Assembly: GCF_000003815.2 (NCBI RefSeq)
Contig: NC_049991.1
Location: forward strand, 4,191,948 to 4,255,947
Source of the DNA: Branchiostoma floridae
Taxonomy: Eukaryota; Chordata; Leptocardii; Amphioxiformes; Branchiostomatidae
Reading direction: 5' to 3'
Length of the DNA stretch: 64,000 bases
In this document: positions 2,459 through 30,696 of the stretch, piece by piece
Layout of the letters: each line of letters opens with the position of its first letter
Numbering within the stretch: the stretch's first letter is position 1
Program-made: the position numbers and the translations under genes
The notes under the pieces: model-generated
Databases searched by the model: none
Seen by the model: only the letters and a program-made list of their open reading frames with translations
What the model was told of the DNA's origin: nothing

Positions 2459-2980
2459 AACAGCCTCCAGTTTAATTCTGCTGTTCCAGTTTAATTCCTG
2501 ACAGACCTCCCATATCTCAGCAACTATATACACAGATGGGCTGATATCACGTAGTATAGGTAAAAATGATGTAAGAAATACGTAGCCGCCATTGATGACC
2601 CCCTGGGGATTAGTCCAGTTATGCATAATTATGCATAAATATGCATAATTATGCATAACCATTCTTAGAGTTATGCATAATTATGCATAATTATGCATAA
2701 GGTTTCTTGGGGTTATGCATAATTATGCATAATTCTTCTTAGGTTTATGCATAATTATGCATAATAGTTTTTATTGCATGATAGTAATAAAGCGTACAGC
2801 GTTTCCAATGGTGATTATGCTTCACTATGTTAACCATGATTCATTTACCGGTAGCTTTGCTGTCGTCATGTATGGTCTAGTGTAGAGGTACCGTAGGTTC
2901 TGGAGGACCTTTGTTATAATCTACAAGCAGGTTTTGCGCTGGCATTGATAGTACATGTATCATAAGTTTGGGAAAGAGTT
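2459..2980 (+). repeat. Left long inverted repeat of the 10.8 kb segment
   Basis: It matches 12725-13230 in reverse complement over its whole length. Outermost are about 155 bases of unique sequence, then the ATGCATAA minisatellite (2618-2765), then about 200 bases of unique sequence ending at GGGAAAGAGTT. The two arms differ by point changes and by unit number in the minisatellite. Confidence 0.85.
2618..2765. repeat. Minisatellite of palindromic TTATGCATAA units
   Basis: Eleven copies of ATGCATAA fall in four blocks of 4, 3, 2 and 2 units, separated by 10-14 base spacers rich in TTCTTAG or GGTTTCTTGG. Each unit is itself palindromic, so both strands present the same motif. The counterpart in the other arm has ten copies. 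Confidence 0.85.
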
Positions 2981-3129
2981 ACACTAATGAAAGGAGTGTA
3001 ACTTTTCACCTGCGAAATTATATTTCTTCGTTTACTCCCATTAACATTCAGACAGTTATGTTATGTTTGCTCCTTCAAATGTCTTATCTGCAGCAGCAAC
3101 AGACAACACATTCTTTGACTTTTACTATG

Positions 3130-3306
3130 TACATGTATATTCAACGTCCTATCCTAGGTACTCATTTTCACCTGAGTTAAGTGAGGAAAGTTACTTAAAG
3201 TGCCTTTCCCAATGGCACAAGGTTGGTGACATGGCAAGGTTCGCACTCGCGACGTCTCGGTCTTGAGCCTAACATGCTGCCGCTGCGCCACGTGATCTCA
3301 CTTGTA
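3130..3306 (-). repeat. tRNA-derived SINE, minus strand
   Basis: On the minus strand a tRNA-like head (A-box-like GTGGCGCAGCGG near 3290; B-box-like GAGTGCGAACC) is followed by a body. The body contains a TTGTGCCATTGGGAAAGGC block, an ACTTTCCTCAC block and a GGTGAAAATGAGTACCTA block. The body matches the plus-strand copy at 4503-4800. This is a retroposed repeat, not a functional tRNA gene. Confidence 0.65.
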
Positions 3307-4502
3307 TTTCAGCAATTGTATTCCATCATTGGCTCAAGCACTGTCTTACTAATGCTTGTAATACCAGCAGACCTCTACACCAGTAGCTACTTCACAAGGC
3401 CTCTTGTTTACCTAAGATCATTTTGTAAGTAGCCATGGCAAATTAGTTTGTCTCAAAGTAATCCCATGAGCCCCCTTGCTGTGAGGAAACTAGAACACAT
3501 TCAGGCAGAAGGCCCACATTCCCAGTGAGAATGCCATGAAATTGCCATGTAATCACAGGTCCATGCATGGTCAATCTTTAAGACTCAAGAACCTGTGCAG
3601 TGCCTTTTTTCTTCAAATTATTTCTGCTTAAATGTGTCTACTTGTCTACTTTTGCATGTGCCATACAACAATAAAACAGCCTATGTGTAGCTGCTGAGTA
3701 AAAACACATGGTCATACAATGTATGTCTACTGAATGCAGGCCCTCTTGTAGGGGGTCTTGGGGGAATGCCACTTCTGTCAAGAGATGGTGCATTGATCAT
3801 ACTTTTGTGGCACCTTGGGTGTGTGGGAGAAAGAATCCTGCTCATATTATGTAGCTAAATAGGCAGCACGTCTGAGGGCAGAGGGCATAAGGTAATATAC
3901 ATGAGATTTACCTTGTAAATCAAGCATTTGATATGAAGAAATAATAGTCTTGTAGTGCTTAATTTTGTTTGGGTAAAATTTACCAGTAGGATCACCTCTC
4001 ACTTTTCAGAGTGAAGTTTTATCGTACCAAGCCGATAAACAAAGCCTTTTTGTGACTTGATAATGTGGAAAAGAGAAAAACCCTGGAACACCCACTTTGG
4101 GCTTTGGGTAACACCAGAAGCTGGTATCATCATAGCAGCTGTTCTCTGTTTACTTAAAGGATTACTATTCTGACACAGCATGAGCCATGACAGATGAGCT
4201 TGTTTCAAATGCACTTCATTGACACATATACATATAACCTGGTCAATGACAAGTTTGCCCAAGGCTACTTGCACTACACATTGAGCCCATCAGCTATAGA
4301 TTGAGTCACATTTAGTTGAATGTGACAGGATGTGTCCCTAGCTTCCTGCATTCCAAGAACTTTCCATAAAATTGCAAATTCACAGTGTGTCAGCAAAGAG
4401 TTGTTCTTGTATGAAAGGATGTTCCACATGCCATTTACAATCTTTCATTAAAATAGTTGATAAATTGCAGATGAAGAAGCATTGTACTGTAGGATCACAT
4501 GT

Positions 4503-4800
4503 GTAATCGGCAGCGCTTTGGGCTCAGGCAAAGAGGTCCTGTGTTCGAAACCTGCCATGTCATTTATCTTGTGCCCTTGGGAAAGACACTTAACACAACT
4601 TTCCTCACCTCACTCAGGTGAAAGATGAGTACCTAAGCTTTGGCTAGAACTGTCCCTTGGATAGGACGTTAACTGGAGGTCCCTTGTTTGGGGAGAGCCA
4701 TATCCCAGGCAAGTAAGAGCCTGAACCAACCCCCCACACTTATCAAAAAGAGTAGGGGACCTTCCCAGTGTGAGTGGATCAAACTATTCTGTCTAGATGG
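4503..4800 (+). repeat. tRNA-derived SINE, plus strand
   Basis: The head has a B-box (GTTCGAAACC) near 4545. The body is shared with 3130-3306: a TTGTGCCCTTGGGAAAGAC block, an ACTTTCCTCAC block and a GATAGGACGTTAA block. Its 3' part (cttatcaaaaagagtaggg) resembles the SINE tail at 45.1-45.3 kb. Confidence 0.65.
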
Positions 4801-5334
4801 GGTACTACGGTACCTGGTATTCCCGGAGTAGCCTCGTAGCCCCTGCTTCGCCTATTGAGTCAGTGAGCCGAACTCGCTAAAGCTCTATGTTTCTGACTTT
4901 AGGAGAAGAGATGCTGCTACAGTGAACGTAGTTCGGTGCCTGCAAGTGGTCAATGGACTGAGCAAACTCGTTTAAAAAAATCAGTGATCCATTCCACACT
5001 TCCCTTTGAGAAAACTAGGACATGTTTCAGATTCACTGGGGGTGTATAGTTTACTTTTATACACAAAGTTTCAAATGCAGTGTCTTCTCGTTAGTCCAAT
5101 GTACCCAATTATAACAATATAGTGAACCATTAAAGATCCAAACAACTATTGCAAGAAACCAAAACCTCTATTTATTCTATATGTAGATCTGTGTTATATT
5201 TGTCTTATGTACTGGGCCTTCACGCTGAAACCAAATTAGCAGGAATCAAGCAGAACCAGCTGGAATGAAGTATTTGCAAAATTCGTGCCACATTCGGGGC
5301 CATTCCAAGTAGGAATTCCAAATGGACCTTATAT

Positions 5335-5805
5335 CCCCTTCACATGAGAAGGAATGAGCCAAAATGCCGTCAGAATGAAAAGTTTGTTCTATTCTTGGGA
5401 ATTCGTACTGTATTCGAGAAATTCTTACTGCATTCCGGATATTCTTTTGGCCACATTCGGACAGGATTCAAAATGGCTTGCCATTTCAGTTCTCCATCGA
5501 ATGAGATAAGAATGTTTCGAATAATGTTGGAATGCCGCATAATGCGGTCATACTGCAGTTAGAATAGTTTGAATACACTTAGAAACCACTTTGAATGCCA
5601 TTTGATATTTCTCCACTTCGAATGCACCTTCACGGTTTTTAATATGTCAAAAACTTTCGGGCCAGCCAAAAGAACGGGCACAAATAGCTGGAATGCAGTA
5701 AGGATGTCTGGATCACACTACAAATTGCCAGGAATATGTCAGGAATAGCAAAGAATTTTCATTCCGACGGCATTCCGGCTGATTCTTGCTATCGTGTGAA
5801 GGGGG
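5335..5805. mobile_element. Non-autonomous foldback element with ~48 bp imperfect terminal inverted repeats
   Basis: The left end starts CCCCTTCACATGAGAAGGAATG and the right end is its imperfect reverse complement, ending ATCGTGTGAAGGGGG; the similarity covers about 48 bases. The interior is full of GGAATNC/GNATTCC words and has no credible coding region. The words continue into 5215-5334, so a related, older copy may abut on the left. Superfamily not assigned. Confidence 0.6.
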
Positions 5806-7484
5806 CTCAAAGGAAAACACTTTATTCTGTACTTTTAACATTACACCATCAACATTTTAAAGGGGGCTCACAGAAGTACTAGTATTAAGCAATTTGCCAT
5901 TAAAATATAAATTTGAAAGTAGACTGTTCATTAATCTACATGTGGAGAAGGCACTATGACTTAATCGATTCAAAACAGAGCTTCATAATGGACATATTGA
6001 ATACTATAGGTATTGGTATGCATCAGAATGATACAGCTACCTGGAAGCTTTCCCCAAAGGGAAAACCACTGGGAAGGGGCAGACATGTAAGTCTCAGACA
6101 TGTAAAGCTAGATATTGAAACATTCTTAAGTTTGTAACCTTCAGAAACCCTGTCCTTATTATCGATTCCTGTTAAGTGTTAATTTTGTAAAATCATTTCA
6201 ATCAAAAGTAAAGTTGTTGAAACAGAAATATTTTACAGGGCTAATTACAAAACACATTCAAATGAATGATGTACTTGTGTACAGTTGCTACTCGGGAATC
6301 AAAGTTGCCAATAACTTTTTTCAATTGTATTGAATCAACAACCTTCAGATAACAACTTTTCACCATCTCAATGTACATATCCTAATTTGGTAAGGGGGAT
6401 ACACCCTGCAAGATTGTTTTTGTACCACTCCCTGTGGTGACCCTTGGCCAGCCAAACCATAGATAATTGATCTACCATGCACCCTGCCCAGGTTTTCAGT
6501 TGGCCATCTCAGACCAGAAAGCAGATGCTGAGCTGGAAGACACTGATTTTTATCCTTCAGTGCTGGAAATACGTACTGGGTGCATGTGCACCAAATTTAG
6601 AACTGTGCACCCATTTTTTCGTAGGTTTACGTAATGAAAAGATATCAACATATACTGGTATGCAGCATATTCTTCTAAACTGTTAGAAAGAAAATTAAAT
6701 GTCTGCCATATCAAGAATTTGAACCATTAGGGTTTATCGAAGTTATCAATGCTGCAAGTTAACTCCACCATTGTTTTAGTAATATATCTTAGCATTTTTG
6801 GACAACATGCAGAAATTGTATTATAATTTCAATTTTACAATGATATTACATTGACACTTTTCTGCTTGTTTTTTTTTTTAAATAATAACTTAAGTTGGCT
6901 AAAAAAACATTTTGTGAATTATTCCTTTCCAGTTTTCTTACTAATGTTTTTTATGAACAAATTAAGCACGAGTATAAAAAATTAAATGAACAGAATGAAG
7001 TCTGAGTAGGTTTTTCGGGCATTTTACTATTTATGTGGTGCATCCCAATTCTTTTAGTTTAAAATTTTAGGTTGGGTTCACAAGTGCACCTAATCCCAAA
7101 AATGAATTTCAAGCTGTCATTTCTCCATTTTATGAAAGTTTTTCCCAGTTCCTAAAATGACACTTGAACCTAAAGATCTTCAGAGACCAGTGTTGTCATT
7201 TTCATGAGGTGTTGCAGACTGGGGAGTGGGATCTGTAGATCAGACTGATACATTGTTTGTATGTACTGCATCTTGTACCCTACACTCACACTGAGACCAT
7301 CTGCTCTTGGCTGACATGTGAGGATGGTGATATTTTGTTCTGGGTGGTGTTGTCATGCCATGGTGTAGGGGTGGGGGTTGCTTGTCTCTCTAGTGCTCAG
7401 TGAGCCTCTTTTTAAAAGCCTTTTCTGTCTCACCAGCATACTGCTGGGCATCACAGTCTTGAAAAGTGATATTATAATACATGT

Positions 7485-7712
7485 TTGATGTCTGTTTTTG
7501 CCCCAAATCTCATACCTAGCAGTCCCCTTCAGAGGTCCTCCTACAGAAACAACAGGGCCGGGTCACTGGGGTCAGCTGAAAACCCCAAGAAACCTTGGCT
7601 GCAGCCACCCGTGAAATTTCAACTTAAGAGATGCATTCCTGAGAATGCTCAAATTACAGGGGAGAGAAGGCCAGGGAAAGTGGCCATACCATTCTATCTG
7701 TATCATATTTAA
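7485..7712 (+). other. Short open frame, possible orphan or captured exon
   Basis: An open frame of about 60 residues rich in Pro, Lys and Arg follows a plausible 3' splice site (CATACCTAG at 7510-7518). It ends near an A-rich tract. I recognise no family and see no partner exons, so this is a low-confidence candidate inside the 10.8 kb segment and may be chance. Confidence 0.15.
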
Positions 7713-7816
7713 AAAAAAAAAAAAAAAAACTCAGATTCTATTTTCATAAAGCAATTACTAGTAATTGTCTAAATTTTGTCTGGAAAATACAAGAATCTGA
7801 GTTTTTTTTTTTTTAA
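7711..7816. repeat. Poly-A/poly-T ended hairpin
   Basis: A run of about 19 A and AACTCAGATTCT at the left is matched by AGAATCTGAGTT and a poly-T run at the right. The two form a stem of about 25-30 bases around an AT-rich loop with a TTACTAGTAA palindrome. It looks like a tiny foldback repeat. Confidence 0.6.
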
Positions 7817-8727
7817 TGTAGAGATAGATAATCAAAATTCAACAGAGTCATATGTTTCTGTTCAAATCTCCCCTACCCTCCCTGCCCATGCTGACTGGCA
7901 CTATGTTGAGGGCCAGTTGGTTGAGGGCATTATAGCTTTCTAAAATTGTATGAAAAGGGCATCAGTCTCTATTGCCTTAGTTAAGTTTCCCAGGTAGGTG
8001 CCCTCATGGAAGGGCAAACCCTTCCAATCTTCGAGTAGATGTAAGATCAGACTCAACTCAGTATTTTGACAATCTTTTGAGAAGTATTTTAATTTGCAAC
8101 ATGTAATACTCCTTTCTATAAGATTCTGCACTTCTTAATTTTTCCTACTTAGGAAGAGTTAAACCAGGAATAAATACCATACTTAAAAGATATTGCTTAC
8201 GTGCTTTACTTGTAAAAAAAACTAAAACAATGAAAACAGAGCCACTTACATCTGCTTGGAGATTAATGGATAAGGACCACAGTGTCACCAAGAGATCACC
8301 ACCCTTTTGAGTCCATGTGTTCTAAGGTTAATGAGAAGTTCCTACCAGTGACAGAAAAACTCTACTCTACTCTACACTACTCATTATCAAATCTCTAGGT
8401 AATTATCACAATCATGTAGTATTTATTGACTTGGTAAGGTTTCTAAATTAAACATTTGAAAAAGAAAAGGAAGATTTAATTAATTGTGCAAAATAGGACT
8501 CTGTAGTCTTTAAGTCTCATTGATGTTTCCAATAGGCACAGAAGGAAAGGTGATACTCAGTTGACCCCTTACCCTCTGGCACAGGCTGGAACCCATAGTT
8601 CCCTAGTGGTTTCTGGGCTGCTGGTGTAGCACACAATTGTGGACAGAATGCCTGATTCTGATCCTCTCTAATTAGTCAACTCCAAAATGATTTTTCTAGG
8701 CACCAACAGTTAGATTAAGACACATAA

Positions 8728-9234
8728 GGCCACAGCAAGTAAATTTTATGGATGACATCCGCGCGCTCATTAATTTTCGTCTGATTTCAGAAAAAAAACA
8801 AGAATTTTTTTTCTTCTTCATGGAAGGCCTAATAGATTAAAATGGGTAAAGGTTGTGTTGTAACCTAATCATTGAATGTAGAATTGACACTAGAGACTCT
8901 GTAGCATTGACTGTAGCTGCAAAGGTGCAACTTGATAGATAGTTGTAAACTATGGAAGCTATGAGTGTAGTTGCCAACATGGTTAATGATACCAGTCTAC
9001 CACACTAGTGTCACTTTAACTACACTGGTACACTTCTTAAATACAGGAATGAATGCCTTGTTGGCTGTGATGCCATATTTTGTCACTTCAACTTAGTTCA
9101 AGTCTTGTTACAACGTCTATTTTGAAAATTTGCCATCTTGTTTTTTTTACCCATCTTGTTTTTTTTTTTCGCCCTATCTCATTATTTTTGCAGTCTGCAG
9201 AGGATGTCATCCATAAAATTTACTTGCTATGGCC
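8728..9234. mobile_element. PIF/Harbinger-like MITE (507 bp) with TAA target duplication
   Basis: The terminal inverted repeats are about 34 bp, from the outer GGCCAYAGCAAGTAAATTTT into ATGGATGACATCC. They are flanked by TAA at 8725-8727 and 9235-9237. A TAA/TTA duplication is typical of PIF/Harbinger elements. A relative with the same inner TIR half lies at 15985-16837. There is no transposase in it. Confidence 0.75.
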
Positions 9235-9671
9235 TAAGATGGATTAAATAACTAAGTAGGAAGACAAAGACTGTTCTTGACTTCCTAGTTACATGTACAT
9301 ATATAATATTTTATCCATCTTATGTGTTGCCCTACCAAACTATCAGTTTTCAATGACTTTATATGAGCAATATCATAGGTACCATCATTACTTTCTTTAT
9401 TTTCCAACAACAATTGTAAATAGGAGGGTCTGGTATTGGCTGAACCTTGTTGTGACAAGCCCTAAGTGGGTAACCCCAGTGAGGACCAGTAACCAGGTGG
9501 GTGGAGCCATGACTAATCAATCCTCAAGCCAAGGAGGTTTGACTACTGGGTGGTACTATTGCCCTCTCCAGATCTCAGGCCAGACTTGGTGTTTCTACAG
9601 TTCAGAAACCTTATTTAGACATGTCCTACCAACTACATGTTCCAATTTTGTAACTGAGTAACTTTGATTGC

Positions 9672-11750
9672 ACAGAGCAAGAACATGGGGGATCCACTCC
9701 AACTACTAAACTCAGAGCATTAACTGCAACCCCAATAGTCTGTAGCAATATCAAAAAAAGTTCATTGGTTACTCTGGAAGTATATCTTTGCACCCCATTC
9801 ACAGACATGACATTGCTCCTTCTGGGTGGAGTGTACACATATAACTTAACAAGTATAAAGGCAATAAGAAAAAAGGGATGTGTACAACCAAATCTATCTC
9901 CCAACTGCATAAAAAAACAGCACTTTATTGCTAGAAGCGAATAGAACTTGTATAAGTTGGCACTTTTGTAAGTGTGTTAAATTTCCTCCAGATAAGTTTA
10001 AATTACTTTTATGCTATAAAGTATCAGGACACACTGTAATGTCAGATTCTGCAGACACCTCTGCTTTAGCAGTGGTCGGTAACTTGCACACTTGCAAATG
10101 CAACCACTTTCTTTGCTTGGCGCAGCCTGATTCTGTGACAGAGGTAGCACAGTGCACAGCCTGAAATTTTACAGTTTTACCCAACCTTTGTGCATAAGCC
10201 TTTGTTTTATTTCTTTATAAGATAAAAAATTAAGAAGGTACATGTAACTGGAAGAAAAAATAATGGATATATTAAGTAGCTGATTTGAGGAAAATAAAAA
10301 CTTGGAAGTGGGGCAACCTGAAATGTTGATGGCGCAACCTGGCTTTTGACTCAGGTTGTAGCCTAGGCAACAAGGCTGAAAAAAGGATTTTGAGTACTGG
10401 CTTTAGGCATGTGACACTCCCCTGCTTTAGATTTATACATGTACAATGCACATCATAATTAAGATGATACATTTTTTCATCTAGCTATAGGGCTTATTCA
10501 CGTGACGTCATCACCCCTTCCCTCTGAGCGCGGCCATTTTGGTGTACCATCACTACAGCAGAGTTCCTCGGTATCTGAAGGTCTCTAAATCTGAGAAAAG
10601 TGAAGTTGTTTGCCCGCTGTTTGACTATACAAAGAGCCTCCAACCTCACGTCATATCTTCGCTACAAAAATCGGTTGGAAATTATCCATATTTCATCATT
10701 GAGGGACATTTTGCAGAAATCCAGTGAGTCACTTTACGAGTATGGCAACAGTGACAGTGGAGTCCATTCATCTTGTCTTAGTTTGGAGTATTTGGTTCTG
10801 TGAATGACTTTCTGCACACTCAGTTCAAAGCGTACAGGACTTACAACAACTTGTTGAAAAGTCCTTGTGGCAACTTAGTACCTGGACAAATACAGAGTGT
10901 AGGATGAGATTTTAGTTGATAGAAAGTGCGTTGTCATCTGGAAAGTTCGCCCTGACATTCTAAAGTTGGACTATCACAGTGAGAACCAGTCCTGTGTCAA
11001 GACGGGACCATTTTGAGTGCCGCAGTTTTTGTTTACACACAGTAAGCAATGCTGCATCTTGTACTAGACTACTCTTGTTTTTGTTTCATGGAAATTCATC
11101 AAAGAACTAGGGGACATGCTCTTCCTGTCGTTTATGGACTCTGCTGTTTCAGTGTTTGTCTGTCTTTCTTTTAGGTTCCTGCTTCTAGAGTGGATTGTAG
11201 GTCAGTATCACCGGAAATGGGTACCCGTGGACATTGAAACTAGCCTATCGTTTGCTTGAATGTCCAGATACAAAATGTCTACTACACACGTGAACATTGA
11301 TTATCACAGTCCAACTGGTTAGATCCGCTCTACGTATTGCAGAAATCTAGTTTTGCTTCCGACTGATCACAGTAGTGTTTTGGAATTTCCCTTTGTATGT
11401 TCATTACCGCGCGGTTTTGACGAGAAAATCGCGAAACAAATCTTACTGTTACCCAATTTGTGTGCGCTTTACCAGTGCAGAACCAACATCCCACGGCAGA
11501 AGAAAGCACTCAGTGATTATGAAACTAAATGTTTTGAAGGGAAATTGTACATTGCTTGGGAAATATTTCAAGTTTTACAAGGAGAGTTGCATAGGGCCCC
11601 ATTGCAGGCGGGCGGACTGTGGTATACCAAAATGGCCGACTTCGCTCATTGCTATGGCGTCCGATTAGTTGCTAGGGGGAGGATCACGTGATTGAATAAG
11701 CCCTATAGCATTGTAAGCCTTGGAGTGGATCCCCCATGTTCTTGCTCTGA
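9672..11750. repeat. Inverted pair of a ~30 bp sequence surrounding another TIR element
   Basis: AGAGCAAGAACATGGGGGAT with CCACTCCAA (about 9677-9706) recurs in reverse complement at about 11723-11753, with weaker similarity extending outwards. The pair brackets the element at 10484-11708. It may mark the ends of a larger nested element or an inversion. Confidence 0.45.
10484..11708. mobile_element. TIR-bounded element (~1.2 kb), superfamily unassigned
   Basis: The ends are perfect 17-bp inverted repeats: GCTATAGGGCTTATTCA at the left and its complement at the right. Inner similarity includes a GGCCATTTTGGTRTACC block at both ends. If the TATA at each outer edge is a target duplication, the element proper is 10490-11703. 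Short open frames at 10539-10727 and 11353-11691 match no family I recognise, so it could be a decayed autonomous copy or a MITE. Confidence 0.6.
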
Positions 11751-12195
11751 GTAATTATATAATTTGGTTACAAAGTTACCCCTGCCCCATCGCTACAACA
11801 CACTTTAAAAAAAATTCTGCACAGTCAGTTAAAACGATCCCCAAGCAACAGAGAGAAAAGTTGGCATAAACTTAAATTTTTCTTTTCCGCAAACAGCCCG
11901 GCCGGGCCCCGGGTAGGAAATGTGACGTAGGCCTTACAATTAGTAAGTTACATGGTACTGCTCTCTGCAGTTATCGGGTATGTGAACTGGTACACAGCTA
12001 TTACAGTTAATTGACAGCTGTTGTGTACTAGTATGTGTTACACTCGACTGCATTGTAAAAATGTGCATAAAGCAGTTACTGTAGATACAATGTATGTAAA
12101 TACGTTTGTGACTGCATCTGTAACTGTAAGTAGTGACACCTAGTGCTGTAGTACAAGTGAACCAGTCAGAATTACCCTGATTGTCACAGACGGTC

Positions 12196-12275
12196 ACAGA
12201 AATGTTGGAGTAAATAAAATATTAAGGTTGTGAAGAAAACAAGCCTCTTTCAGTGACTTACCAACCTAATGACCT
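12196..12275. repeat. Relic of the Penelope-like tail seen at 1.3 and 33.3 kb
   Basis: The order AAATGTTGGAGTAAATAAA, AAGGTTGTG, TTCAGTGACTTACCAACCT matches the right part of the element at 1329-1512. The hammerhead-like arm is missing, so this is a fragment. Confidence 0.4.
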
Positions 12276-12724
12276 GAGTGAGTGAGTGTAGGTCTACTCT
12301 CTAATACCATGACAATTAACTGTAGCATAGCATATTATTTCATATTTTGTACTTTGATGGAGAATTCTGCATGTAAGTTGCAGATTTCTACATATGTGTT
12401 GCACAATTGTGCCTGGCTGTAGTCAGACTTCTGTTCGTAATTCTACAGTCAAATGCAGAAATCTGAAGAACTGATTTAGTCCCACGGGGCCTGCGATGTT
12501 AACTAAATATAGATGTAATTGTCATCATGTAGTATATGTTGTATTCTGAAACAAAAAACATCCTTCTTAAACTATACCATTAATAATCATGTTTCTGGGT
12601 TTAGGGTGTTTTCCATATTAAGAGTGTTGCCTGTTAAATGAAAACTTGATAGTTTGACATAGCTTAACAGTTACTGATTAATTGCTAAAGATTTGTTTTA
12701 GAAATAACTTGTAGATAACTGCTA

Positions 12725-13230
12725 AACTCTTTCCCAAACTTATGATACTATCAATGCCAGCGCAAAACCTGCTTGTAGATTATAACAAAGGTCCTCCAGA
12801 ACCTACGGTACCTCTACACTAGACCATACATGACGACAGCAAAGCTACCGGTAAATGAATCATGGTTAACATAGTGAAGCATAATCACCCTTGGAAACTC
12901 TGTACACTTTACTACTATCATGCAATAAAAACTATTATGCATAATTATGCATAAACCTGAGAAGAATTATGCATAATTATGCATAACCCTAAGAAAGCTT
13001 ATGCATAATTATGCATAATTATGCATAACTCTAAGAAGGGTTATGCATAATTATGCATAATTATGCATAACTGGACTAATCCCCAGGGGGTCATCAATGG
13101 CGGCTACGTATTTCTTACATCATTTTTACCTATACTACGTGATATCAGCCCATCTGGGTATATAGTTGCTGAGATATGGGAGGTCTGTCAGGAATTAAAC
13201 TGGAACAGCAGAATTAAACTGGAGGCTGTT
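12725..13230 (-). repeat. Right long inverted repeat of the 10.8 kb segment
   Basis: Reverse complement of 2459-2980, ending GGAGGCTGTT. It has ten ATGCATAA units (2, 2, 3 and 3 per block) at 12936-13072, against eleven in the left arm. Confidence 0.85.
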
Positions 13231-13416
13231 TTTTGTAGTTTGTAGCAAGGTACTTAAAAGACAGATGCCACTTGTAGCACTGTGAAAATGACGTATATAC
13301 TTAATAGAAAATGTGCAATACTAGAGCATGATGCAATGAGTCTGCCATAATCGTTTTGTATTTAAGATGTAGAAATTGGAAAAAAAACAAGAGTGGATTT
13401 AACATCGACTATCATA

Positions 13417-13607
13417 ATTCCACCAGGTGCCCTAATACCACCACCTCAAATATGTTAGTATAGAGCTCTTCCCAAGATTATCTTGAACGCCGAATGTTAA
13501 ATATCCTAAATGTAATACAATTCAGATATTTAGGTGTTGAAGCCAATCTTGATAAGGCCTCGTGACAACGTTTTCTGAGGTGGCGGTATAATGGCACCTG
13601 GTGGAAT
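13417..13607. mobile_element. 191 bp MITE with ~30 bp terminal inverted repeats
   Basis: It starts ATTCCACCAGGTGCC and ends with the complement. Inner similarity continues through a TATACCRCCACCTCA-like block. There is no coding capacity, and the target duplication is not clear. Confidence 0.65.
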
Positions 13608-13804
13608 CATGCAAATGTATGTTATACAATTGTATATGTTTGTGTGTTTTACTTTCTATTTCTTGACCGTCGACATGACCAAGAATCTTACTGCTTTAAG
13701 ACATTTCCAATAAGATGCCGGAGGGGTTTTAAATTATGTACATAGTACCAAAGCGTGTTACTAAACTTCAATTTGTATGAATAATTAGACATCCAACTGG
13801 TCCT

Positions 13805-14624: not shown

Positions 14625-15292
14625 AAGTTGGTGTGACTGAAACCAACTAAGAATTGAAAAAAAATGATACTAACGTTAGTAATATTACCAGACATATACA
14701 TAGGGCCACGTGCAAATGGCAATAGGTCTGCCATGATCACCCACGCACTGAATCCTAAAGCCACCAAAATGAAGAAAAAAAGTGTTATTGAGACCTACGC
14801 ATTGATAACTTGAAAATCTGCATAGGGAGCGGCAAGAATTCTTGTTGCTGTAGTAGTATAATAAAGTATACCTTTTTTAAATCTAATGTTTTTGTTTAAC
14901 TTGGCGACTTGAACATGTACTAGGTTCGGCACAAAAAGAGAGAGTTGTGAAACATACAGATTCTCAAGCAGACTAAACTGTATTCAAGAACGTGCTGTTT
15001 GCACTACTCCAATTTTCTAAGAAAAACAACGTTTCATAATAATTAGCATAAAACATCCATGTATACTGATGCCCAAGTATGGTTTAAACACCAGAGCACT
15101 GACAGATTGGTCTGCCTTGATCACCCACGCGCTTGAAAAATGAAAAAAAAAATATTCTTGTGAAAAAAAGTTTGCAACTGACAAGGTAAAGAATAGAAAG
15201 ACGTCAAGACATCGTTGCCAGACGAAGCTTCATTCTTCCTTCTCACTCCGCCGTTAGCAGGTGTTACATGAGACAGTGTCGCAGCAAGTCAC
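14625..15292 (+). promoter_or_regulatory. Receptor 5' module, upstream tandem copy (truncated in its exon)
   Basis: This roughly 670 bp module is repeated in tandem at 15293. It has GATCACCCACGC boxes at 14735-14746 and 15119-15130 (384 bp apart), then an AGACGTCAA CRE-like half, then the start of the non-coding exon (CTCACTCCGCCG). The copy breaks off at 15292 before the splice donor, so the duplication junction lies within the exon. Confidence 0.6.
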
Positions 15293-15984
15293 AGCTAGTT
15301 GGTATGACTGAAATCCAACTACGTACTATAAAAAAGAAAATGACACTAGTGACAGTACCAGACAGAGAATGCATTGGAGCACGTGCAAATCGCAATAGGT
15401 CTGTCATGATCACCCACGCATTAAATCCTGGAGTCACCGAAATGAAAAAAAAAGTTTTATTGAGGCCTACGCATTGATAACTTGAAAATCTGCATAGGGA
15501 GCGGCAAGAATTCTTGTTGCTGCAGTAGTATAGTATAGTATACCTTTTTAAATCTAATGTTTTTGTTTATCTTGGCGACTTGAACATGTACTAGGTTCGG
15601 CACAAAAAAGAGAGAGTTGTGAAACATACAGATTCTCAAGCAGACTAAACTGTATTCAAGAACGTGCTGTTTGCACTACTCCAATTTTCTAAGAAAAACA
15701 ACGTTTCATAATAATTAGCATAAAACATCCATGTATACTGATGCCCAAGTATGGTTTAAACACCAGAGCACTGACATATTGGTCTGCTTTGATCACCCAC
15801 GCGCTTGGAAAATGAAAAAAAAAATATATTCTTGTGAAAAAAAAGTTTGCAACTGACAAGGTAAAGAATAGAAAGACGTCAAGATATCGTTGCAAGACGA
15901 AGCTTCATTCTTCTTTCTCACTCCGCCGTTAGCAGGTGTTACATGAGACAGTGTCGCAGCAAGCTACAGCTATTATCGAGGTAA
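15293..15984 (+). promoter_or_regulatory. Receptor 5' module and non-coding exon 1 of unit 1
   Basis: Second tandem copy, with boxes at 15408-15419 and 15791-15802 (383 bp apart). A GACGTCA half-CRE lies near 15878 and the exon-like block runs from about 15895 to a donor, GAG|GTAAG, at 15981. The same exon and donor recur at 21558/21559 and 30696/30697 ahead of the other two receptors. That recurrence is the main evidence for a transcribed, spliced 5' UTR exon. No TATA box is obvious. Confidence 0.6.
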
Positions 15985-18203: not shown

Positions 18204-19578
18204 ATGACAATTGTCGTTTGGGTCATTATATTTCTAAATGTACCACACATTTGTGAAGCATCAGCACTTTCAACACTAGTCTCTCAAGGATGTAGTGCGC
18301 AGAATTGGCACAATTATGGTTTACCTTGCCTACAATATTCATGTTTACCTCGACTCTACTGTGACAAGAAAGGTTTAACGAGTGTTCCAAAACGACTGCC
18401 TTTAAACATCTTTGAGCTTAATCTTCCCAACAACGCCTTGACCACATATCCTTGCAAGGCCCTCCGTTATTTGAGCTTTATTGTCTTAAGAAACAATAGC
18501 ATCAGACTTTCCCTGGCAATGTCTTAAGAGCATTCCTTGGCTAGTTCATTTGGATCTGTCATATAATAAGATCTTCTGTGTCAATCTCTACCCAGTTTAC
18601 TCTTTCTTGCACAACTTGAAAAGGCTGGACGTTTCCTACAATAGCATAAGGAGGTTGTCTTTGTGCGACCTTGGTTTGGACATGTTTGCCCCAAATGGAC
18701 GAACGATACAATATGAACCTATTATCATAGGTAACCATTTTCACTGTGATTGTAGCATCATTTGGCTCATTGATTTGGCGATAAAGGCAGAAACGTGCCG
18801 AAATAAAACATCACAAGGATGCGAAGACTTCCTCACGGGAAATGACGTTGCATCAGCCATGTACAGGGACCAGTCTCAGTTCCGCTGTAAAACACCTAGT
18901 ATCTTAAGGAACGCAGAACTCCATACAGTAAATGAACATGTCTTGAAGTGTTATGAAATCTGGGATCCGACAAGCGAAAATAGTACATTCTACATTGATA
19001 AGCCCTGTGATCCTAACAGTTTCTGCCCTATCAAACTTCAGAACATTACTCTCTCTGACGTCACTACCGTAGCGATGACATCAGAGTGGTTGTTGACTGG
19101 ATCAGTAGGTGGTTTGACCGTTTTCCTCTTTGGCGTTGCGTTAGCTGTGTGTTGGAAAATCTACAGAAAGCAGCATGATAACACTATTGCGCAACGTGGT
19201 CACGTTGACAACATGGCGACTGGACAAGTTGTGAACAACAGTTTAGATGACCAAGCTACTGTCAATCACAGCACCCAGGTCGATGATCAGGAAGGCTGTA
19301 GAAATGACCCGGAGACAGAGTTAGATCCTCGTATGTACGAAACCATACCTGACACAGAGGAACCTTACGAAACGTCACCCTATGTTTTTGACTTTCCTCA
19401 ATATCATGTTGTGGAAATTGAAAAGACAGTTAAAAGTAGCCCTGAGAGAAACGAAGGGCCCCACACTTTAACTGGCGAAGGTACACAGGACAGTGAACAG
19501 GCATGCCACAGTCCTGATGACAATGGGACTGATGATGTAAAGCAGTGGTTTGACAAAATGATAACTTCCGGTCTTTGA
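18204..19578 (+). pseudogene. LRR receptor 1, frameshifted
   Basis: This belongs to the same family as the genes at 26629 and 31466. It has a signal peptide, a cysteine-rich N-terminal cap, LRR segments, a C-terminal cap with HCDC, a membrane segment and a cytoplasmic tail ending DDVKQWFDKMITSGL. Compared with its paralogs, the region 18507-18517 has a net loss of two bases, which puts TAA (18525-18527) in frame. The reading frame reopens and continues without a stop from about 18530 to 19578. It also lacks the ~60-residue glycosylated stalk before the membrane segment seen in the other two. The tail keeps four tyrosines, in MYETIP, PYETSPY and PQYHV. Everything after the shift is well preserved, so the lesion is recent, allelic, or a sequence error. 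Confidence 0.8.
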
Positions 19579-20920
19579 GATGTGTTGACGTTCTGACAGT
19601 GTCATTTGTTCAAATTATTTTTTTAGAAATATAGTTGAACACGATAAAAACAAGGCTCCTTTTGAGCCAGTCGTATGTCTTTGGTTAAACTGATGGCGAC
19701 ATATATTTGTTCACGTTTTTGCTCATTCAACATTTGTATGACGTGTTGCAGTGTTAGCTTGGTTATAGAATCAATTAATAGACACAAAGTTACATAAAAA
19801 TGTCATATCATTTATGAAGAGAATGTGTGATGAAAATCAGAAACATTTCCGCAGTTACTGGGATGTCGAAATTAATGAAAGGCAAGGTTATTGTCTAGTA
19901 AGTAGCAGCGTATTTAAAAGACAGGTATACTGCGTAGCACTGCGAAAATGACGTATATACTTAGCAATGTGAAAATGATATGATCATGAAATATGCAATG
20001 ATTTTTGTACTCTTGCCATATTCTTTCTGTATCTATGATGATTATGATGTAGAACAAGAACAAGAAAAGTAGACTGATAAATATGTCTGTATGTGTGTAT
20101 TGCTCTCTATTGCTTGTCTCTCGACTTAGCCATGGAACATGCCAGAGGGCAGTTATATAGACGTAGATTAAAAGAGTGTTATAATTTTTATAGTGTCCCT
20201 CATCAACTGAAATAAACCCGTACAACTAATTTTTGACGTAACACACGTGCTTTCTAAATCATTGCCTTAATCATTTGTTAAATGCATGTTGTATTTGATG
20301 TGAGTTTTGCTTGAAAAAAGTACATATCGCAGCATTTCAGACTGAGCACATTGTACGAGTTGTTGCTTAACAATCGTTGCTTTTTGACACCAAACTGACA
20401 TAACTTATTATACTAGATGTCTGCAAATCGCACTGCATCAACGTGTTTGCTTGTTATGATATAATAAAAATTAAACAGGATCATCATAGAATCAGATGTT
20501 TGTCTTAGTTCTGTGGAAATTTAACCAATTCAAGCTTATTTTATTGTTGTTCCGAAATCCTTCCGATATTCAATTATCTGTAGACCGGCGATGATGAAAA
20601 ATTGCCTCTAGTGGTAGTTATCACCTTGTTGATTAGTACTAGTTTTCATTGACATCTTCTAGGACACAGCAGTCAAACCTGCACAAGTGATCACCTAACC
20701 ACTTGTCCAACGTATTCGCTTTATGGTGATAATTTTCCTTATTGACACTAGCAATTAGAATCCTTTCTATAGTTAACATCTGTACAGTAACCTAGACCAA
20801 CATTTTATTGTTTCCTAGGCGATCTTCTTGCGTAGATTTAACTTTATTTTTTTTATTTATTCGTTCGGCCGTTTACTGACAGCCAGGGCTGCCCAACTAG
20901 CCATAGGCTATTACCAAGCA
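19579..20920 (+). other. 3' flank of receptor unit 1
   Basis: Non-coding sequence collinear with the ghost-unit pieces at 2225-2458 and 13235-14300, and partly with 28.6-29.5 kb. It ends at AATAAA 20463-20468, then has unremarkable AT-rich DNA up to the next 5' module. Confidence 0.5.
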
Positions 20921-21558
20921 GTTGGTATGACTGAAAACCAACTACGTACTATAAAAAAAGAGAATGACACTAGTGACAGTACCAGACAGAGAATGCATTG
21001 AAGCACGTGCAAATCGCAATAGGTCTGTCATGATCACCCACGCATTAAATCCTGGAGTCACCAAAATGAAAAAAAAAGCTTTATTGAGGCCTACGCACTG
21101 ATAACTTGAAAATCTGCATAGGGAGCGTGCAAGAATCCTTGTTGCTGCAGTAGTATAAAATAGTATACCTATTTAACTAAAAAATGGAGAGAGTTGTAAA
21201 ACCAACAGATTCTCAAGCAGATTAAAACATATTCGAGAAGTGCTGATTGCACTACTCCAATGTTATAAGAAAAACAACGTTTCATAATAATTATCATAAA
21301 ACATTCGTGTATACTGAGGCCCATGTGTGGTTTAAACATCAGAGCATTGACAGATTGGTCTGCTTTGATCACCCACGCGCTTCAAATATAAAAAAAAAAT
21401 AAAGTTTGAAATTGACAAGGTAAAGTATAGAATGACGTCACCAGCCATCGCTACCAGACGAATCATCATACTTTCTTCTCATTCTGCCATCGGTGTTACA
21501 GAAAGAGCTGACAGAAAGCAGCGTCTCAGCAAACTGCAGCTTTAAATGTTATCTGAAG
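20921..21558 (+). promoter_or_regulatory. Receptor 5' module and non-coding exon 1 of unit 2
   Basis: The module has boxes at 21032-21043 and 21367-21378 (335 bp apart) and a complete CRE palindrome, TGACGTCA, at about 21433-21440. The exon-like block ends at donor AAG|GTAAAC (21559). It is followed by an intron to the ATATAG acceptor at 21788. Confidence 0.6.
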
Positions 21559-30061: not shown

Positions 30062-30696
30062 TTGGTCTGACTGTTACTACCCACGTTCTACAAACAAATG
30101 TATAAGTAAATGTCACCAGACAGAATATATTAGAACGGGACACGTGAAGACTACAGTACGTCAGTCATGATCACCCACGCATCAAATCTTGAAATCACCA
30201 AACCAAAAAGAATGGCGTCTTCTAATGAACACCTGAATGCCTGAAGTGTTCGTGTCACAAATATTGCTGATACTGCAGTTATAGTCATCTTTGAATTCAA
30301 TAATTCTGTTCAATGTGACGGTATTGGTGGGGACCTGGTAATACTGACATCTTTTTAAGTAGACTAAGACTATGATAAAATGTGATGATTGCACATCAGT
30401 AATAATCAATGTACTGAAACAACAAAGATTCATAATGCTAAACATGGCACATTGTACACAGTCATACAAAGTGTGGTTTTAACATCAATGCATTGGCAAA
30501 TTGGTCTACTTTCATTACCCACGCGCTGAAACGATGAAAAACGTTCTTGTGAAAATAAAGTTTGCAACTGACAAGGTAAAGAATAAATGATGTCACCAGC
30601 CATCGTTGATAGACGAATCATTGTTCTTCCTTCTCACTCCGCCGTCAGCAGGTGTTACAAGAGGCAGCCTGCTAGCAAGCTACAGCTTTTCTGGAG
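30062..30696 (+). promoter_or_regulatory. Receptor 5' module and non-coding exon 1 of unit 3
   Basis: The module has GATCACCCACGC at 30169-30180 and a variant box, CATTACCCACGC, at 30513-30524 (344 bp apart). TGATGTCA stands at the CRE position near 30590. The exon-like block (CTCACTCCGCCGTCAGCAGG) ends at donor GAG|GTAAGC (30697). This is the uninterrupted counterpart of the site hit by the Harbinger-like element in unit 1. Confidence 0.6.

Follow-up and report, generated by a model that had tools for sequence, protein, structure and literature searches.

The window, a stretch of 64,000 nucleotides of Branchiostoma floridae DNA, contains a large segment bounded by long inverted repeats at positions 2459-13230. 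Its left terminal inverted repeat (2459-2980, forward strand) is 522 bp long and starts with AACAGCCTCCAG, and the right one (12725-13230, reverse strand) is 506 bp long; aligned with gaps, the two arms are 95% identical, and ungapped blocks of 190 and 325 bp reach 99% and 97%, respectively. A preliminary description of this DNA had given the same coordinates with inverted arms of approximately 0.5 kb, and these turned out to be exact. The first 160 positions of the arm form a terminal core (2459-2618, forward strand), which is followed by an array of 11 palindromic decamers TTATGCATAA, ten of them exact, at spacings of 10 or 22 bp (2619-2764, forward strand); the right arm carries ten such decamers at the same spacings (12935-13070, reverse strand). 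The interior (2981-12724) is collinear in other copies of the same family, which we call family A, and no coding constraint was detected in it. A nested 0.5-kb inverted-repeat element with a TAA duplication lies at 8728-9235, its ends being 97% complementary over 34 bp. Its site is empty in C16 and C4, and no match to it was found in the ten other element loci fetched first.

The four letters adjoining both arms on the outside are TTTT (2455-2458 and 13231-13234), a perfect target-site duplication. When the host flanks were joined by a script with one TTTT, they aligned to positions 19706-19963 of the window (forward strand) over 267 columns, with 74% identity and 24 gap columns. At this empty site, which is paralogous and not allelic, the alignment runs from 2276-2458 straight into 13235-13303 with no gap at the junction itself, where the paralogue has TTGT in place of TTTT, so the earlier claim that the left and right flanks together match an uninterrupted paralogous flank is borne out. 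A perfect 4-bp duplication was present in 15 of the 16 elements checked (11 giant and 5 short), and five of the six other family A copies with both arms have their own; the chance of a 4-bp match per site is 0.005 at window composition and 0.028 at 10% G+C. G or C makes up 6 of the 60 letters in the 15 duplications, a departure from window composition with P = 6e-7. The sole miss, C158b (GATC/ATCT), sits in a tandem repeat, and this locus may be rearranged. By its inverted repeats, 4-bp duplication and paralogous empty site, the segment at 2459-13230 has the features of a cut-and-paste DNA transposon of the terminal inverted repeat type.

Two further giant families, B and C (14-18 kb), have ends in common with family A, and in each of the three giant families (10-18 kb) two or more copies retain both arms. 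Families B and C, like the short elements of the B type, resemble family A in the terminal core (approximately 74-78% alike), and related ends are also found on many short elements of 0.2-1.4 kb. Termini are AACA...TGTT, reading AACAG in family A and AACAC in the B, C and D ends. The list of ends was compiled by hand from several genome searches and holds at least 136 ends, 48 of them unpaired; its counts are lower bounds, and some short lengths are approximate, as some ends come from partial matches. At least 44 elements could be paired, with at least 29 under 1.5 kb and at least 15 over 9.7 kb, and no mid-sized element of about 1.4-9.7 kb was found among these pairs. One 40-kb pair may represent two broken elements, and one family C element that was fetched contains 884 N. 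Besides the 11 giants read, giant pairs lie at C6:21533351-21547794, C8:18355584-18370344, C10:3838762-3853985 and C14:21588705-21629117, and a divergent end resembling that of family A lies at C16:17909149. A search of viral contigs with the end motif returned no exact matches.

Palindromic decamers, with one mismatch allowed, occur 10-21 times per arm in all 22 giant arms read, and 9-19 per arm match exactly the type of the family concerned, which is TTATGCATAA for A and B and CAGAATTCTG for C. Of 248 spacings between decamers in the 22 arms, 246 measure 10, 20-22 or 32 bp, which corresponds to helical-turn spacing. None of the 11 giants has an exact decamer of its own type more than 700 bp from the ends. 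The rows of decamers at the ends look like places where an enzyme produced elsewhere would dock.

The preliminary description had reported no recognisable transposase, and this holds as far as tested, since none of the 17 open reading frames (ORFs) of the window gave a Pfam match above cut-off; the same was true of 20 family A ORFs. The one match above cut-off among 30 ORF translations in all was a Mos1-type HTH in C3, which looks like a relic of a nested mariner element. Matches below cut-off to SIBA-E_N, DUF4559 and zf-CCCH_4 (window ORFs) and to Clr5, Peptidase_C39 and 7tm_2 (family C and B ORFs) were taken as chance. No transposase or autonomous partner with matching ends was found among the 11 giants read.

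The best surviving alternative, although an improbable one, is that family A (or B, or C) is autonomous in disguise, with a transposase encoded in many small exons or belonging to a class outside Pfam, and that the copies have decayed. The presence of three giant families without mid-sized forms among the pairs found suggests that their size is not maintained by accident. Family A also has interior modules in common with family C (two, both short) and with family B (two, one of them with C17 only), always in the same order, and in family B pN/pS is low (0.20 and 0.25) in the two open runs that could be scored. These two values, however, rest on seven changes each, and family A itself points the other way. 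Each of its 20 interior ORFs (those of at least 70 aa) is frameshifted by indels in at least one other copy, 9 of the 20 acquire a stop codon, and just 88 of 401 small indels have a length divisible by three. Median pN/pS is 0.90 for C13 against C323 (20 runs) and 0.81 for C3 against C13b (17 runs), and the two runs of C13 against C13b gave 0.53 and 0.68. The lowest runs of C3 against C13b (0.18-0.42) are based on 6 to 10 changes apiece and are located partly inside arms. Codon-position tests detected no coding constraint in family A, nor in C3 against C13b. A spliced gene inside the element is unlikely, and the absence of detected transposase coding points to a non-autonomous element.

Family A copies were counted by their arms. 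There are seven copies with both arms, window included, and two stretches with one arm (C18 and C158a). The preliminary description had proposed a search for full-length copies with the same interior, and the six other two-armed copies have it; aligned positions are 97.4-98.8% identical in five of them and 92.5% identical in C323, an old copy. Together with the 4-bp duplications, the lack of detectable coding and the paralogous empty site, the common interior and arms favor the first of its two readings, one large non-autonomous element. Its second reading was a composite, in which two independent small elements in opposite orientation trap and move an unrelated interior. Short elements with related ends are indeed common (29 of 44 paired, both numbers being lower bounds), which touches on the refuting observation named in the preliminary description, arms occurring widely as independent short insertions, but the five short elements read fully are all complete and two-ended, each with its own 4-bp duplication. 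Where the end sequence was printed, no short pair has the A-type AACAG. Further evidence against a composite comes from the interior common to family A copies, from the lack of inner termini or other terminus-like sequence in all 11 giants, and from a tree of arms, in which the 3' arms of the seven copies cluster (support 0.90), with C323 off the pattern. Arm identities overlap, averaging 97.6% for the same side and 96.5% for opposite sides with only 2 side-specific columns; these means exclude C323 on account of an interruption in one arm. We therefore regard a composite origin as very improbable. That segmental duplication or assembly error produced the inverted arms and repeated interiors is hardly credible: C158a and C158b have the same tandem repeat and the same insertion point in their inspected flanks, so this pair may be duplicated or rearranged, but the remaining copies are spread over different contigs, differ in their flanking letters and have 4-bp duplications of their own; had host DNA been duplicated, the flanks would have been copied as well, and the 4-bp duplications and the empty site contradict such an origin.

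The segment is thus very probably a giant non-autonomous cut-and-paste DNA transposon from a group without an assigned superfamily. A transposase from another element would bind the arms at their terminal core and decamer arrays and would then pair the two; cuts would fall adjoining AACA...TGTT, and the whole 10-kb unit would be inserted at staggered 4-bp cuts. An element without a detected gene has moved as one 10.8-kb unit within the genome, and we infer its movement in trans and the recognition of its ends, the 11 giants read having yielded neither a transposase nor an autonomous partner. If nothing but the ends is recognised, this would account for one end type being found with miniature cargo of 0.2-1.4 kb as well as with giant cargo of 10-18 kb.

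A bolder reading, which we put forward tentatively and consider doubtful, is that these ends define a new superfamily, whose transposase or partner would read the helically phased decamer arrays, and whose families would switch specificity by exchange of the decamer (TTATGCATAA versus CAGAATTCTG) in a conserved arm. If this were true, recognition confined to the arms would propagate gene-free elements of either 0.2-1.4 or 10-18 kb, with intermediate sizes missing, and selection would favor large size as such. The usual picture of non-autonomous DNA transposons is one of short elements, and three related families of 10-18 kb without detected genes raise the question of what keeps such elements long. 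The decamer arrays offer a directly testable model for end recognition and for changes in family specificity. For the host genome, a 10-kb block can enter as a single unit, and the empty sites of the elements are clean markers for local duplication history.

Among known transposons, Polinton/Maverick elements are large and have long inverted repeats, piggyBac duplicates TTAA, and non-autonomous copies occur in Galileo and Foldback of Drosophila. Our comparison with superfamilies rests on published descriptions of ends and duplications. The window element resembles Polinton in large size and long inverted repeats; the described Polinton duplication is 6 bp, versus 4 bp here, and the window ORFs lack Pfam matches above cut-off, as noted above. 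The CC...GG termini described for piggyBac are not those of the lancelet elements, and TTAA is absent from all 15 duplications. Likewise, the TG..CA termini described for IS481EU differ from AACA...TGTT. Ginger1 and Ginger2, both reported from lancelet, also make 4-bp duplications, but their described termini are TGTNR, and the lancelet duplications do not fit the targets given for Ginger1 (CCGG/CCGT) or Ginger2 (RTATAY). Chapaev (CMC) has 3- to 4-bp duplications, as here, and the B, C and D ends hold CAC...GTG two bases inward, whereas the Chapaev description places an invariable CAC...GTG at the very termini, which read AACA...TGTT (AACAG or AACAC) here. Galileo (P superfamily) is described with similarly long inverted arms, up to 1.2 kb, but the copies described have perfect 7-bp duplications, against 4 bp here, and a middle segment of approximately 350 bp, compared with approximately 9-17 kb in the lancelet giants. 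A limited literature search (including LanceleTn, "amphioxus MITE" and passages of an amphioxus recombination paper, PMC12500494) returned nothing describing these elements. According to the Repbase rule, members of a superfamily have the same duplication length and at most one mismatch in positions 1-11; at these positions A and D, and D and B/C, differ at one, and A and B/C at two, D being compared by termini only. The ends or duplications are unlike those of Ginger, Polinton, piggyBac and Chapaev, and Sola2 and AcademX are candidates. AcademX, compared by duplication length alone, has the 3- or 4-bp duplication seen here. Sola2 has 4-bp AT-rich duplications like those of the lancelet elements; the Sola2 elements described have inverted repeats of 12 to 21 bp and a transposase gene, whereas the lancelet giants have arms of 350-520 bp, decamer arrays and no detected gene.

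The segment at window positions 2459-13230 is genuine and has clear boundaries: it is a giant non-autonomous DNA transposon of one of three giant families with common ends (A, B and C; the window element is an A). Its arms, 2459-2980 and 12725-13230, are inverted repeats of each other with TTTT immediately outside both, just where the preliminary description had placed them. When the host flanks are joined with one TTTT kept, they align over the junction to window 19706-19963 (267 columns, 74% identity, 24 gap columns), gap-free at the junction itself, where the paralogue has TTGT for the TTTT of the window. This stretch is a paralogous site without the insert, so that the earlier argument from paralogous flanks was right. 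Just right of the element lies a hairpin-like inverted repeat (13400-13624; 95-bp arms, 72%), followed by a direct repeat in near-tandem arrangement (about 672 bp, 14696-15972; 85-98% in aligned blocks) with relatives at 20917-21500 and 30418-30687. An ORF of 342 amino acids at 18550-19578, with no Pfam match at E 0.001, is probably the receptor unit that was then described.

A search of the genome (513 Mb in 431 contigs, the window lying on contig C13) with the left arm found inverted arm pairs, 92-100% identical, at six further places. Identities to the window element are given here for aligned positions only, gaps excluded, followed by the number of its 10,772 positions left unaligned. The copy on contig C16 (10,394 bp, duplication AAAT) is 98.8% identical (506 unaligned), that on C2 (9,754 bp, TATA) 97.4% (2,463), that on C165 (13,580 bp, AGAA) 97.7% (638) and that on C4 (12,105 bp, ATTA) 97.5% (568). 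The copy on C323 (10,425 bp, TAAT) has one arm interrupted and is 92.5% identical (3,901 unaligned), and one of two copies on C158 (C158b; 10,075 bp, 98.7%, 912 unaligned) has GATC and ATCT at its sides, with no perfect duplication. The interiors are collinear with that of the window element, as expected for one element. Single arms were present within the stretches fetched for C18 and for the other C158 copy (C158a). In the two C158 copies (L011 and L022), the sequence to the left of C158b and that to the right of C158a consist of one and the same tandem repeat (about 0.9 kb), entered at an identical point (GATC). The pair therefore looks rearranged or co-amplified, as though a transposon had become trapped in a tandem array that was expanding or rearranging. 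Nested within the window copy, at 8728-9235, is a 0.5-kb element whose inverted ends agree at 97% over 34 bp; its TAA duplication suggests a Harbinger-like origin. Its site is empty in the C16 and C4 copies, the alignment closes over it in C158b, C2, C165 and C18, and it had no match in the ten other element loci examined.

The terminal motif, with up to two mismatches, occurs at 134 places in the genome vs none for a reversed control pattern; searches with B arms, C arms and the motif of a further end type, D, added more ends. At least 44 elements could be paired from 88 of the 136 collected ends: at least 29 measure 197-1,382 bp and at least 15 measure 9,754 bp or more, with none of 1.5-9 kb among the 44. 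One of the long pairs spans 40 kb and is perhaps two broken elements. The same end type, together with a perfect 4-bp duplication, is present in each of five short elements (373-1,382 bp) whose complete sequence was read. Family B, with arms about 75% like those of A, includes giants on C7 (14,347 bp, ATAT) and C17 (15,584 bp, TAAA); family C, with a terminal core about 77% like that of A, includes giants at 14.26 Mb of C13 (C13b; 17,871 bp, CTTT) and on C3 (14,520 bp, GTCT). The element inserts as a whole, duplicating 4 bp of AT-rich target: 15 duplications hold 6 G+C in 60 letters (P = 6e-7). Two short interior modules are common to A and C in the same order, and two others to A and B, also in the same order, one of these in C17 only and not in C7. 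Since host DNA flanking the C4 copy also contains a 69% match to one module, that module may be an ordinary dispersed repeat; that all three giant families go back to a single giant ancestor is thus no more than a suggestion.

The alternative that two small inverted elements act as a composite, raised in the preliminary description, fares poorly, since no terminus-like sequence was found inside any of the 11 giants read (elements of at least 9.7 kb) and the 3' arms group together. A tree of the family A arms separates a cluster holding the 3' arms of seven copies (support 0.90) from the 5' arms. Such a split would follow if the copies came, as whole elements, from an ancestor with two already distinct arms; in C323, by contrast, the left and right arms cluster with each other. 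With C323 left out, mean identity is 97.6% between same-side arms of different copies (42 pairs), 96.5% between opposite-side arms (43 pairs) and 97.0% within one copy (6 copies). Because these ranges overlap and only two columns are fixed by side, the tree is support rather than proof of whole-element descent.

The first 160 bp or so of each arm form a terminal core common to A, B and C, followed by an array of a palindromic decamer, TTATGCATAA in A and B and CAGAATTCTG in C. If one mismatch is accepted, an A arm carries 10-11 decamers, a B arm 17-21 (including, in two arms, a stray decamer 193 bp further in) and a C arm 11-12; the mean number of exact decamers in a shuffled arm is 0.002. Neighbouring decamers lie 10, 20-22 or 32 bp apart, corresponding to one, two or three DNA turns, in 246 of 248 cases (22 arms). 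In all 11 giants, exact decamers of the family's own type are confined to the outermost 700 bp at each end, and the interiors of six of the nine A and B giants contain one or two copies of CAGAATTCTG, the decamer of the other family. C-type arrays (pairs of CAGAATTCTG) stand without the core at 24 of 40 scored places (query positions 157-353), and the arrays may therefore have come from minisatellites or been passed on to them.

No coding was detected in the window element, and together with unit insertion and the 4-bp duplication this bears out one of the two initial readings, that of a large non-autonomous element. Twenty interior ORFs of family A, of at least 70 amino acids, have 156, 164 and 179 variable columns at codon positions 1, 2 and 3 (overlapping ORFs counted separately); all 20 carry frameshifting indels in another copy and nine carry stops, and 88 of 401 small indels are divisible by three. 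Median pN/pS is 0.90 for the window element vs C323 (20 runs open in both) and 0.81 for C3 vs C13b (17 runs); the window element vs C13b gave two open runs only (0.53 and 0.68), and the two runs of the family B pair (0.20 and 0.25, seven changes each) are too little to judge. Nothing in Pfam exceeded the cut-off in 17 window ORFs and three ORFs of the C165 insert. Ten further ORFs, from families B and C, gave a single match above it, a Mos1-type HTH fragment in C3 (HTH_48; L061:1193-1531, minus strand, E 1.4e-9) that seems to be the remnant of a nested mariner. A transposase was not found among the 11 giants read. In the right half of the 17.9-kb family C element (L060), several ORFs on both strands repeat one protein-like unit of about 40 residues, in a minisatellite-like manner.

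A transposase or accessory protein for the giants would most likely be supplied from elsewhere. Such a protein, probably a dimer, would bind the decamer arrays cooperatively along one helix face, bring the two arms together, and excise and insert the unit regardless of the content between them.

The kind of element is already known; new are the size class, the missing transposase among the giants read, the two-peaked lengths and the phased decamer arrays. The families may already carry names in Repbase, where 265 Branchiostoma floridae families were listed in 2015 (PMC4455052). The same source gives a rule for non-autonomous elements that compares the eleven outermost positions and allows one mismatch. 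The D ends differ from those of A, and from those of B/C, at one position, and the A ends from those of B/C at two, so that judged by their ends a single superfamily for A, B, C and D is likely, although the difference between A and B/C formally exceeds the limit of the rule. Among the known superfamilies whose ends could be compared, AACA...TGTT speaks against Ginger1 and Ginger2 (TGTNR ends, CCGG/CCGT or RTATAY targets; PMC2836005), Chapaev (invariable CAC...GTG end, 3-4-bp duplications; PMC4079192) and IS481EU (TG..CA ends; PMC10045372). Polinton has 6-bp duplications (PMC10045372) and Galileo copies, which resemble the present elements in their long arms, have 7-bp ones (PMC2775673), in contrast to 4 bp here. 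The 4-bp AT-rich duplications of Sola2 (PMC3627910) and the 3- or 4-bp duplications of AcademX (PMC10045372) agree with those found here, and both are candidate superfamilies.
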